From: Marinomonas arctica
GTDB taxonomy: Bacteria; Pseudomonadota; Gammaproteobacteria; Pseudomonadales; Marinomonadaceae
Length of the DNA stretch: 64,000 nt
Reading direction: 5' to 3'
NCBI RefSeq assembly: GCF_003259225.1
Contig: NZ_QHJF01000033.1
Span: 1 to 64,000, forward strand
In this document: positions 2,533 to 40,780 of the stretch, one piece after another
Layout of the letters: each line of letters opens with the position of its first letter
How positions within the stretch are numbered: the stretch's first letter is position 1
Position numbers and translations under genes: made by a program
The notes under the pieces: generated by a model
Told to the model about the DNA's origin: nothing
The model's database searches: none
Seen by the model: only the letters and a program-made list of their open reading frames with translations

Positions 2533-3489
2533 CTAACGCTTTTTAAAAATCCCGCTGGCGATGACGACGCCAATGCTGACGAAGATGAGTCCGGCAATGG
2601 AGTAGCCTTCTAGGTGTTCGCCAAGTACTGGGATGGCGATGAGGGCAGCGAGTACTGGGGTGAAGGCGCCGATGGCGGCCATGTTTTCTGCGCCGAGTTT
2701 TTGGATGGCGTAGCCGTAGGAGAATCCGGTCATCAGGCCGACGAGTAAGCTTTGCACGAGAATTTGCCCTGCCAACATATCCCAAGAGGCGTTAACTAAG
2801 CCGCTGGAAGCCAATCCAGTTGCCCATAAAAACGCCAGCGCGATCAAGGAAACCAAGCCCATCAACGCCGTTGATACAAAAGGCGGTAAGCCAGCGATGC
2901 GCAAACTCACGGTATACACAGCCCAAAAGAAGCTAGCAGCAAGCAATAACAAATCCCCTTTCCAGGTATTCTCAGGCGCGGTAAGCAGCGACAAGCTGAA
3001 CAACACCAAAACGCCTGCACAGACAAAACTCAAGCCTATTTTGCGTTCACGGCTGACTTTTTCTTGATAGAAAAGCACCGCCAGCAAGGTCACAAAGAAG
3101 GGGAAAGCGCCAAGGATTAACAAGCCAGCATGAGACGCGGGGGCGTATTTCAAGCCTGTGGCACTTAGGTAGAAAAACGGTAAGCCTGCACCACAAACAA
3201 TCCCCAATAAAAGTATGGGAGAAACGGCTTTAACTTGTGCTCTGGCGCGCCACAAAAAAGGCAACAACAATAAAGCTGGCGGAGAAAATCGCAGTATACC
3301 TAAATCAAAGGCAGTCAAAGTGTTGGTCATACCAGCACGCATACTGACCAACCAAGAAGCCCAAATTAAAATACTCACGAAGGCTGCTAACAAACCAAGG
3401 CGGAAGCCCCAACCCGTGGCGTATTGTTTGTATTTTGGTGACTCTTGAGCGGACATGGATGATGTGTGTTGTGTGACGGTTTGCGGCAT
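2533..3489 (-). CDS. EamA/DMT-family transporter
   Basis: This is a 318-residue inner-membrane protein with about ten hydrophobic segments and two EamA-type halves, typical of the drug/metabolite transporter superfamily. The start is the ATG at 3489, with AGG 7 bases upstream; a GTG two codons earlier is possible. It is divergent from an Lrp/AsnC gene across a 136-base gap, a common exporter-regulator pairing for amino-acid-like substrates. That pairing is the only hint at substrate. A clear terminator follows. Confidence 0.88.
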   Translation of the reverse strand: MPQTVTQHTSSMSAQESPKYKQYATGWGFRLGLLAAFVSILIWASWLVSMRAGMTNTLTAFDLGILRFSPPALLLLPFLWRARAQVKAVSPILLLGIVCGAGLPFFYLSATGLKYAPASHAGLLILGAFPFFVTLLAVLFYQEKVSRERKIGLSFVCAGVLVLFSLSLLTAPENTWKGDLLLLAASFFWAVYTVSLRIAGLPPFVSTALMGLVSLIALAFLWATGLASSGLVNASWDMLAGQILVQSLLVGLMTGFSYGYAIQKLGAENMAAIGAFTPVLAALIAIPVLGEHLEGYSIAGLIFVSIGVVIASGIFKKR

Positions 3490-3625
3490 AACCACCTCGC
3501 AGGAAATCGATAAGATTATTATCTGCCTTTACCCGCGAGCATGTCCTTGCTATTTAGCCTCATAAAAGGCTATTTTTTAGCACATAACACCCAATTAAAA
3601 CCAATTAATTACTAAGTATGCCAAT

Positions 3626-4090
3626 ATGGATAAAACCGATCTAGACATTCTCTCCCATTTACAATCCGATGGCCGTCTGACCAACGTTGCCTTAGCGGAA
3701 GAAATTCATCTATCGCCCTCGCCTTGTTTACGCCGCGTGAAGCAGCTCGAAGACACGGGGGTGATCGAGGGGTATCACGCTCGCATTGATCGTCAAAAGG
3801 CAGGATTTTCCATGACGGTGTTTGTGGAAGTGCGTTTGAAAAGCCATGCTGGCGACAAACATATTGTGTTTGAAAAAGCGATTTTGGCGATGGAAGACAT
3901 CATCAGCGCGCATTTGGTGTCTGGCATTGCAGACTACCGGCTCGAAGTAGTCGCGGTGGATCTACAAGATTACGAACGCATTCTGAAAGCCTTGCAGTCC
4001 TTGCCTCATGTCAAAGACATTCAAAGCCACTTTGCTATTCGTTCAGTAAAAACGGCGGCACCATTGCCTCTAAAGAGAATGTCCACATAA
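3626..4090 (+). CDS. Lrp/AsnC-family transcriptional regulator
   Basis: At 154 residues it has the normal length for the family. The N-terminal helix-turn-helix (about 4-60, including LAEEIHLSPSPCLRRVKQLE) is followed by a RAM ligand-binding domain (about 65-145). Members sense amino acids and bind as octamers or dimers of dimers. The divergent DMT exporter is the obvious candidate target. The ribosome binding site is weak. Confidence 0.9.
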   Translation: MDKTDLDILSHLQSDGRLTNVALAEEIHLSPSPCLRRVKQLEDTGVIEGYHARIDRQKAGFSMTVFVEVRLKSHAGDKHIVFEKAILAMEDIISAHLVSGIADYRLEVVAVDLQDYERILKALQSLPHVKDIQSHFAIRSVKTAAPLPLKRMST

Positions 4091-38842: not shown

Positions 38843-39092
38843 GCAAAAACTCCATTCATACAAACATCTTGCGCATTAAAAAAGATTAACCAAAAAGTCA
38901 GCTTTCATAGTAGGACGATTTTATGCGAAGTTCATGCCTTTTTTGTGACAGTTGTTTATTGATTTTGTAGAACCGACTTATAAAGGGGGCAGATCCTTAA
39001 ACAAAATAAGCTGATTAAAGCACAATTAATTCAATGCTATTTTTAAAAAAAAATAATTCGAATAATTAAAGATATCCACATACTTACAATCT

Positions 39093-39132
39093 AAAATATG
39101 CTAAACCACCTGGTAGCGGTTTAGCATATTTT
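39093..39132 (-). terminator. Terminator of the serine protease gene
   Basis: Perfect 15-bp arms (39093-39107/39118-39132) with a T-rich end lie just past the protease stop codon. Confidence 0.75.
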
Positions 39133-39139
39133 TTAATTA

Positions 39140-40048
39140 CTAGGCGTATTTCAAAATTAAAGATCTATCATGATGTGATTCAATGATTTTTGCGGTATTT
39201 GTGTTCAAAAAAGTAGCCATATAGGCGTGATGTAAACTAAGAACCAAATCTTGAAGGTTCTGATCACTTTCCATCATAACGACATTTAATCCCAATGATA
39301 TCGCTTTGTCCGCATGAATATGCCTAGAATGCTCTTTAGTCTGTCCAGGATTATTCAAATTTTCCATTATTGATTTAATATTTGCATCTTGATCTGCTGG
39401 CTCTTGGTCTGACAACATAGATGAGCTCAACCATTTAGGAACGATACTTGTAGCTAACTCAATAGCCTTTTCACATTCTTCCAAAAAAGCAGGCGGATAT
39501 TTTTGTATCATAACTTGCCATAATGGCAAGGTATGAGGATGTGTTTGAATTTCTTCAGTGGCTCTTTTAAATTCCTCAAACACAGCAAAAGCCGAAACGC
39601 CCTTAACAAATGGATCGAACGGTCCTATACAGGACTGATGTCCCATTATGATCTCTTTGGCACTACATGCGATCATCGTGCCTGCAGACATAGCCATCTG
39701 TGGAACTATTACACGAATATCCTTTCCAAACTTTGCTCTCAAATAGTATACCAACGACTCTGCTGCTGTTATAGATCCACCTGGAGTATGTAAAATTAAA
39801 TCTAGGCCTAAAGAACAATCAAGTCCTTCAATTGTATTCATAAAGCCATTTTTATCCATATCATCAATAGATAAATTAGGTACAGGCTTACCCTCTACAC
39901 TTAACCATCCAGAGTAGTAACAAATTACATTCCTTTCGGTGTACTCATTAAGTTTTTTAATTTTTGCTTTTCGAACCACATCCACTGCATTTGGCTGCGT
40001 TACATTTAAAGCATTGATTTCATTAAGTATATCATTAAGGCAAGGCAA
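39140..40048 (-). CDS. ClpP-fold serine protease of the SDH (serine dehydrogenase proteinase) family
   Basis: This 302-residue soluble protein resembles PF01972. The oxyanion region LILHTPGGSITAAESLVYYL and the nucleophile region PQMAMSAGTMIACSAKEI (Ser in MSAG) match ClpP/SppA-like proteases. CIGPFDP is also characteristic. It has no signal peptide. The start is TTG with GGAG 7 bases upstream. That site begins immediately after the T-run of a terminator, so its expression may depend on read-through. Substrates are unknown. Confidence 0.82.
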   Translation of the reverse strand: MPCLNDILNEINALNVTQPNAVDVVRKAKIKKLNEYTERNVICYYSGWLSVEGKPVPNLSIDDMDKNGFMNTIEGLDCSLGLDLILHTPGGSITAAESLVYYLRAKFGKDIRVIVPQMAMSAGTMIACSAKEIIMGHQSCIGPFDPFVKGVSAFAVFEEFKRATEEIQTHPHTLPLWQVMIQKYPPAFLEECEKAIELATSIVPKWLSSSMLSDQEPADQDANIKSIMENLNNPGQTKEHSRHIHADKAISLGLNVVMMESDQNLQDLVLSLHHAYMATFLNTNTAKIIESHHDRSLILKYA

Positions 40049-40061
40049 GAATTTTCTCCAT

Positions 40062-40091
40062 AAAAAAGCCCTGTATAAACAAGGCTTTTTT
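40062..40091 (-). terminator. Terminator/attenuator between the 67-residue gene and the protease gene
   Basis: AAAAAAGCC and GGCTTTTTT arms form a classic intrinsic terminator on the minus strand. The T-run is directly followed by ATGGAGAAAATTC and the protease TTG start, leaving no room for a separate promoter. The protease would therefore be made only by read-through. Confidence 0.75.
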
Positions 40092-40110
40092 CTTGTCAGA
40101 CACTGTACTT

Positions 40111-40314
40111 TTAAATGGAAGTAGAAACGGTCGTATTTCCGCTAACTAAAGGGACTGTTTTTGGCGTAGTTTCATTTGACACAGAAATAGACATTTTTTC
40201 TTGCTGAAAAAATGAATGACTTAGCTGTGAGATAGGAAAATTTACTTCAGAATACAGTGCAACGCTTTGCTCACAAATAGTTTGTTGCATAGCTCTTAAA
40301 TTATGATTATTCAT
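40111..40314 (-). CDS. Hypothetical small protein (67 residues)
   Basis: I recognise no family. AAAGGA lies 8-9 bases before the ATG, so it is probably a true gene. The protein is polar with no membrane segment, and its last 27 residues are rich in serine, threonine and valine. It is the first gene behind a promoter flanked by two 12-bp palindromes and is followed by an intrinsic terminator and the protease gene. Its role may be linked to that protease, but this is only inference from position. Confidence 0.55.
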   Translation of the reverse strand: MNNHNLRAMQQTICEQSVALYSEVNFPISQLSHSFFQQEKMSISVSNETTPKTVPLVSGNTTVSTSI

Positions 40315-40333
40315 ATCACCAATCCTTTTTAAT

Positions 40334-40376
40334 ACTACATGTAGTGCTATGTTTATAAAAAATCACTACATGTAGT
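40334..40376 (-). promoter_or_regulatory. Paired NrdR-box-like palindromes around a promoter
   Basis: Two identical perfect palindromes ACTACATGTAGT lie at 40334-40345 and 40365-40376, exactly 31 bases centre to centre (three helical turns). Taken as 16-bp boxes, the gap is 15 bases, the spacing known for NrdR boxes of ribonucleotide reductase promoters. A TATAAA hexamer for the minus strand lies between them. NrdR or a similar repressor is the candidate binder. Confidence 0.55.
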
Positions 40377-40403
40377 GGTGTTAGTTCGAATACCAGATGA
40401 ACA

Positions 40404-40430
40404 AAAGCCTCCATATTCAATGGAGGCTTT
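40404..40430. terminator. Hairpin in the gap before the NrdR-like boxes
   Basis: AAAGCCTCCA and TGGAGGCTTT form a perfect 10-bp stem with a 7-base loop. T-runs are short on both sides. It could end a minus-strand transcript coming from the zinc peptidase side or act as an insulator. Confidence 0.5.
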
Positions 40431-40780
40431 GCACTAACTGTACTTATAAACAGTATTTTTAATGTCTACTTTCTAGCAAGGTATGACTCATTGTAGTACA
40501 CAAAACCCTCAATATACTAATAATTACTTTATTTCTGTTCAAAAAAAGCACCTCTTGTACTATTGCTCCAACGTCTTTTCAATTGATTGCTATGAATATT
40601 AGCTTTCATATCGTCCTACTAGTTCGCCGCACAAGCAGCTTAATAATATTTCACGAATGCCACTATCACGTCTTCTTACATCTAATAATCGTTGATCACT
40701 TAGCACAGTCAAGTTATGTAAAATATATAGCTGAATTGAAGCGCACCTAAAGAGGCACGGCCTTACAATTGAACAAAGTG
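40431..40780. other. Gene-poor gap with short open frames only
   Basis: No supported gene is seen. On the minus strand one frame running left from about 40770 encodes a run including LTVLSDQRLLDVRRRDSGIR and stops near 40608. A second short frame (MKANIHSNQLKRRWSNSTRG) overlaps its end. They look like remnants of coding sequence but I cannot name a family. Confidence 0.3.

Follow-up and report, generated by a model that had tools for sequence, protein, structure and literature searches.

Paired NrdR-like boxes ahead of a mobile, mostly phage-borne small-protein and protease cassette in Marinomonas arctica

Tetramers of the repressor NrdR carrying adenosine triphosphate (ATP) and deoxyadenosine triphosphate (dATP) bind two boxes that lie an integer number of helical turns apart, usually with 15–16 base pairs (bp) between the boxes; both boxes are required, and NrdR with ATP alone does not bind (accessible text of PMC12051234 and PMC12176259). 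The accessible text of PMC12051234 describes NrdR as a repressor specific to ribonucleotide reductase genes, with topA as a contested exception. Here we analyze a pair of NrdR-like palindromes in a 64,000-nucleotide stretch of DNA from Marinomonas arctica (contig NZ_QHJF01000033.1, positions 1 to 64,000; this whole stretch is the window referred to below), which stands ahead of a two-gene cassette encoding a small protein of 67 residues and an SDH-type, ClpP-fold serine protease. Judging from sequence comparison, we consider it very likely that the pair is an operator through which the host's NrdR would control this acquired, mostly phage-borne cassette, turning it on as dATP falls.

The nearest known counterparts of the pair are the nrd promoters themselves. 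Those of Escherichia coli nrdHIEF, nrdDG, and nrdAB, and of nrdA in the genus, resemble the cassette in box sequence, in the presence of two boxes with 31 or 32 bp between their centers, and in the placement of the boxes shortly before a start codon; they differ in that nrd promoters control a reductase, whereas the cassette boxes are located on mobile DNA and precede genes for a small protein and a protease. A second comparison is with phage morons, extra units that occur in some phages, are absent from their relatives, and have a promoter and terminator of their own. The cassette shares with morons both the absence from relatives and the typical positions (after the antiterminator gene Q, or between the lysis and terminase genes), but differs in its proposed control by a host metabolic repressor. 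The topA gene of Pseudomonas aeruginosa has likewise been proposed as a non-reductase target of NrdR (accessible text of PMC4409342; contested in that of PMC12051234), but it has one box and is reported in PMC4409342 as activated by NrdR, while the cassette has two boxes at the canonical spacing. A hypothetical host operon of Streptococcus pneumoniae, SPD_1594-1595, may be likened to the cassette by its description in the accessible text of PMC6755750, where an NrdR site lies ahead of the operon and its expression is raised in phage infection. According to the same text, expression of the NrdR regulon rose strongly when S. pneumoniae was infected by the lytic phage SpSL1, which means that phage infection can relieve NrdR repression. 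No description of NrdR boxes in phage DNA was found in the literature searched, which covers few subscription journals.

An earlier, sequence-only reading of the window had pointed out two identical 12-bp palindromes 31 bp apart, followed by a 67-residue gene and then a ClpP-fold protease gene. Both parts of this description hold: the two copies of ACTACATGTAGT are exact, and the open reading frames (ORFs) together with a match to Pfam family PF01972 agree with the gene order. The features concerned are as follows.

40365–40376, minus strand: NrdR-like box 1, the upstream one with respect to transcription; exact palindrome ACTACATGTAGT, in agreement with the nrdA boxes found in 41 genomes from the genus.
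40334–40345, minus strand: NrdR-like box 2; exact palindrome ACTACATGTAGT, 31 bp from box 1.
40111–40314, minus strand: small gene, 67 residues; an ORF whose product is similar to the small protein of phage MuM16-1.
39140–40048, minus strand: SDH-type ClpP-fold serine protease, 302 residues, TTG start; assigned from the ORF, PF01972, phrog_11747, and a structural model.

With a start-to-start spacing of 31 bp, the two boxes lie an integer number of helical turns apart, as is required of NrdR box pairs, for which that number is usually three. The window contains the exact pair a single time, and 0 of 100 shuffles of it contain the pair. A single box with up to two mismatches is expected 1.56 times in the window, so isolated near-boxes are unremarkable, and the signal lies in the exact pair and its spacing. 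Against the scan consensus ACWAYATRTWGT, built from the genome's own nrdA boxes and the published motif, the pair scores 24 of 24; with a matrix of 82 nrdA boxes it scores 37.9 and ranks first among 796 placements. Across the 4.45-Mb genome, exact matches to ACTAYATRTAGT occur at three sites (the two window boxes and one at nrdA), and the looser ACWAYATRTWGT adds three more exact matches, all of the ACAA..TTGT kind.

The host genome encodes NrdR (TIGR00244, 217.3 bits against a cut-off of 124.65) and a class Ia NrdA. The boxes at its own nrdA promoter are ACTACATATAGT and ACTATATAGAGT, with a spacing of 32 bp. All 40 congeneric nrdA upstreams that were fetched, from 46 available, have a pair scoring 21–23 of 24, the two boxes being 32 bp apart in 37 of the upstreams and 31 bp apart in the other 3; two of these congeners (L074 and L078) have one nrdA box identical to ACTACATGTAGT. 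In the same scan, the nrdH, nrdA, and nrdD promoters of E. coli K-12 score 22 at 31 bp. The suggestion that the pair has NrdR-type geometry, which a clearly different box at the genome's own nrd promoter would have refuted, is supported at the level of sequence by the nrdA pairs at 31 or 32 bp in the host and its congeners, as well as by the conservation of the pair at phage cassettes described below. No DNA-binding regulator was found among eight neighboring proteins scanned between 34485 and 45397, in line with the supposition that no other local repressor binds there.

To gauge how general the box pair is, we surveyed the upstream regions of related cassettes. The loci came from a protease search blind to the boxes, in which the best 80 of 130 relatives were kept. 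From 118 viral-contig loci, 85 were used, the rest being taken, by name, as repeats of the same contigs; removal of the 5 of these 85 with less than 120 bp upstream left 80, and the addition by hand of six loci, all known box carriers (the window, L022, and L123–L126), gave 86 upstreams, or 61 non-redundant ones once near-copies were removed. A pair scoring at least 20 of 24 at 31 or 32 bp is present in 21 of the 61, against 0.08 expected, and one scoring at least 19 in 23, against 0.71 expected. Without the hand-added rows, of which three remained after redundancy removal, the counts are 18/58 and 20/58, respectively. When all spacings from 13 to 60 bp are considered at a score of at least 20, 12 loci fall at 31 bp, 9 at 32 bp, and no more than 3 at any other distance. 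The spacing is 31 or 32 bp in all 23 box-bearing cassettes, and in sequence these pairs fit the published NrdR geometry. The nrdA-box matrix places the pair first of 796 placements at all 23 loci, repeating the consensus result, though its 82 boxes had themselves been chosen with the consensus ACWAYATRTWGT. The 252,379 flanking bases of 60 loci contain no pair of at least 20 at 31 or 32 bp, and three of 19. In a separate scan of L022–L032 and L114–L121, 3 of 19 loci were positive (L022, L024, and L114).

These counts bear directly on the possibility that the palindromes are a chance occurrence or an inert relic. Single boxes with two mismatches are indeed common by chance, but the exact pair was absent from all 100 shuffles and is conserved in 23 non-redundant upstreams from two clades. 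A chance origin is rejected by the shuffles, the pair counts, the flanking DNA, and the conservation alike, and we assign chance or relic status a negligible probability.

Carriers of the conserved pair include a Mu-like phage of Shewanella, viral contigs, and several prophages, among them a lambdoid one in E. coli Nissle 1917. In a phage-like plasmid from Enterobacter (L024) the pair has a score of 20 and a spacing of 32 bp; in the same record, at about 3001–3850, the protease gene appears to be broken into several frames while the box pair is intact. A query derived from L024 is covered over at least 80% of its length at a place in 28 of 5426 E. coli genomes. Five kinds of E. coli prophage were read (L122–L126), and all five have the pair, with scores of 19, 20, 20, 20, and 23 at 32, 32, 32, 32, and 31 bp. 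In Nissle 1917 the cassette lies in the lambdoid prophage next to yecE, after the antiterminator Q and before a DNA methyltransferase gene and the lysis genes; in L123 and L126 it directly follows the late antiterminator Q, again ahead of the lysis genes. The phage resistance of Nissle is credited to a prophage repressor gene in the accessible text of PMC5987069, and the cassette could not be placed in the prophage 3 of that study.

Could the pair be the operator of some other host or phage regulator that happens to recognize an NrdR-box-like site? Phages often carry repressor genes of their own, and the cassette boxes do deviate in detail from nrdA boxes, as in Nissle, where ACTACATCTTGT is paired with CATAGATGTAGA. 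Against this stand the lack of a regulator gene beside the window site and the occurrence of the same motif, at the same 31- or 32-bp spacing, at nrd promoters of the same host and of E. coli. The pair moreover accompanies the cassette wherever it was seen among Mu-like phages, lambdoid phages, and a chromosomal site that has no phage genes nearby, and its retention across such different carriers makes a single phage repressor unlikely. We regard control by another regulator as improbable, and the case for an NrdR operator, to the extent that sequence can make it, as strong.

By analogy with nrd promoters, an NrdR tetramer holding ATP and dATP would bridge the two boxes, three helical turns apart, and keep the cassette off, either by covering its promoter or by blocking polymerase arriving from upstream. 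A fall in dATP, through inhibition of the reductase or the drain of deoxyribonucleoside triphosphates (dNTPs) in phage replication, would release NrdR and allow the cassette to be made. The protease might then serve the cell or lysogen, most likely against another phage, which is the least certain step. Taken together, the observations suggest that phages have coupled the two genes to the cell's own gauge of nucleotide supply. A class of phage-borne targets with canonical paired boxes would mean that mobile elements use a host sensor to read the dNTP state, and would supply a trigger for a phage protease family; if this is true, the role of NrdR would extend beyond repressing reductases to regulating mobile elements. 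The copy in the probiotic and genetically tractable E. coli Nissle 1917 makes the idea directly testable.

Several results weigh against the proposal that host NrdR controls the cassette in this manner. In the survey of spacings, lowering the score threshold to at least 19 gives 12 and 11 loci at 31 and 32 bp, yet also 9 at 28 bp. Three E. coli-type pairs score only 4–6 bits with the nrdA matrix. Among the related proteases placed on a tree (see below), 44 of 67 lack the boxes, so NrdR control is not general for the protease family; the named box-less members belong to Spirochaetota, Bacillota, Bacteroidota, Planctomycetota, and Methanobacteriota, and also include proteases of P. aeruginosa and of a Klebsiella plasmid record. 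A search of six cassette proteins with PADLOC 2.0.0 matched 0 families, and for this reason a role in defense rests on context.

The location of the promoter belongs with these difficulties. The sequence-only reading had placed a promoter between the boxes; a TATAAA is present there, but a consensus scan gave no sigma-70 site at the window pair, and this part of the reading was not confirmed. Over the 23 loci, a sigma-70-like site with its −10 element in or after box 1 is found at 4 (2.0 expected), and one upstream of box 1 at 8 (4.2 expected). In an E. coli-type subclade of seven that includes Nissle, GCTATAGT is found upstream of the hairpin, at a distance of about 84 bp from box 1. Given the scan results and this upstream element, occlusion of the promoter is only one possible mode of repression, and the position of GCTATAGT means that NrdR might act as a roadblock in that subclade. 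On the other side, the end of box 2 is about 14–43 nucleotides from the start codon, a short distance that favors a promoter covered by the boxes. A hairpin precedes box 1 at 15 of the 23 loci by the rule used. The idea that the promoter necessarily overlaps the boxes found no support in the promoter scan of the 23 loci and was dropped.

The small gene and the protease gene form a mobile, mostly phage-borne cassette that the window's genome acquired horizontally, a feature that was beyond the reach of the sequence-only reading. The nearest proteases found are those of the Shewanella Mu-like phage MuM16-1 (65%) and of a viral contig (66%), and both have the same order as the window: hairpin, box pair, small gene, hairpin, protease. 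The approximate limits of the insert are as follows.

38965–40772, strand not assigned: approximate extent of the acquired insert; the flanking host genes are adjacent in L249, L250, L251, and L254.

The zinc peptidase gene bordering the insert is present in 12 other genomes examined, and in four of these, the ones just named, it directly adjoins the 5'-nucleotidase gene that forms the other border. In L253 the two are about 1.3 kb apart, and in the other seven genomes the 5'-nucleotidase gene falls outside the 1.5 kb examined. The congener G027 has about 1.3 kb of other DNA (L253, about 192–1500) at the cassette's intergenic place, and the site may for that reason be an insertion hotspot. Boundary repeats of the insert were sought, and none convincing was found. 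The 67-residue gene does not belong to the usual gene content of the genus, as in a search of 48 congeneric genomes both it and the protease were found in the window's own genome only. In 369 genomes of the class, the 67-residue protein was found in the own genome only, and the protease, at E values up to 1e-20, in eight including the own genome; the seven others have no box pair (best score 17). A search of the same 369 genomes with phrog_25714 gave no match, but none in control genomes either, and is uninformative.

One alternative accepts NrdR control as real but holds that the cassette aids lytic growth of the phage that carries it, perhaps through cleavage of host proteins at the time when replication drains dNTPs, and does not defend the cell. 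The cassettes of Nissle, L123, and L126, after Q and before the lysis genes, would be within reach of late transcription, as this alternative would have it; lambdoid phages, however, would express a cassette there late anyway, so that a dedicated operator would hardly be needed, and the window copy stands alone in the chromosome between host genes, without phage genes close by. We see a role in lytic growth as a real but less than even possibility. The lone chromosomal copy suggests that the cassette can serve the cell. Action against rival phages is a guess from context, and the fuller idea, in which NrdR, the host's sensor of dATP, was taken over by temperate phages (probably on two occasions) to signal infection, and the module stops the infection of a rival phage, is one that we put forward tentatively, as something that may well prove wrong.

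A tree of 67 proteases (one of 68, shorter than 200 residues, was left out) shows how the operator is distributed. The 23 rows with boxes make up two clades, one of five that contains the window (support 93/93) and one of 18 of the E. coli type (100/100). The box label changes twice on the tree, compared with a mean of 19.4 after shuffling, and 0 of 500 shuffles gave a value as low. The likely history of NrdR control is either two separate gains or a single gain followed by losses. A small ORF of 59–76 residues within 64 nucleotides of the protease, picked mechanically, is present in 15 of 38 box-less non-redundant upstreams, and the two-gene unit thus seems wider than NrdR control.

In the window itself, the order on the minus strand is hairpin, box 1, box 2, 67-residue gene, hairpin, 302-residue protease, inverted repeat; the remaining elements are listed here.

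40404–40430, minus strand: terminator-like hairpin before box 1 (fold z −4.6), 27 nucleotides ahead of that box.
40062–40091, minus strand: intergenic terminator-like hairpin, after the small gene and before the protease (fold z −5.6).
39093–39132, strand not assigned: inverted repeat after the protease with 15-nucleotide arms, 100% complementary; a likely terminator.

The hairpin separating the two genes occurs in four of the five members of the window's protease clade, and would lead to more small protein than protease being made. No reductase-linked genes lie downstream of the pair, where there are instead a small protein without a family and the SDH-type protease. The latter passes the gathering cut-off of PF01972 (SDH_protease; 65.3 bits against 31.3) and matches phrog_11747 with an E value of 4.8e-93, but stays, at 86.4 bits, below the curated cut-off of 250 for the NCBIfam equivalog NF047768 (SDH family Clp fold serine proteinase). 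Its AlphaFold2 model has a mean predicted local distance difference test (pLDDT) value of 94.8, and among solved structures it matches ClpP and SppA chains best. Searches of Pfam, PADLOC, PHROGs, and NCBIfam assigned the 67-residue protein to no family; in a two-sequence comparison it is 32% identical to the small protein of MuM16-1 (E value 2e-08). A structural model of one small protein was poor (pLDDT 63) and was not used. PHROG 11747 holds the window protease and the two E. coli proteases tested, and PHROG 25714 the two E. coli small proteins tested, while the window's small protein is in no PHROG; both PHROGs are annotated as of unknown function.

Within the small proteins, V43 and Y45 are invariant in 24 sequences, and this V-x-Y motif may be the part that meets the protease, of which the small protein might be a substrate, inhibitor, or adaptor. 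The motif is shared by small ORFs that precede the protease in cassettes lacking the boxes (L132, L133, L137, L138, L141, L146, and L150). Small proteins of the E. coli type (L122–L126 and L142–L189) have a conserved C-terminal (L/M)Y(S/T)Y, which may be a recognition signal. The small gene ahead of the E. coli 103605 protease (L124, 2322–2522) is unannotated in its record.

Elsewhere in the assembly, contigs C1, C39, and C62 (L005, L006, and L007) each start with a near-copy of the box, ACTAAATGTAGT, which is probably a repeated element at assembly ends. Contig C73 has a single ACTACATCTAGT (L008, 1501–1512) after two ORFs of 155 and 184 residues, which by eye look like a toxin–antitoxin pair.
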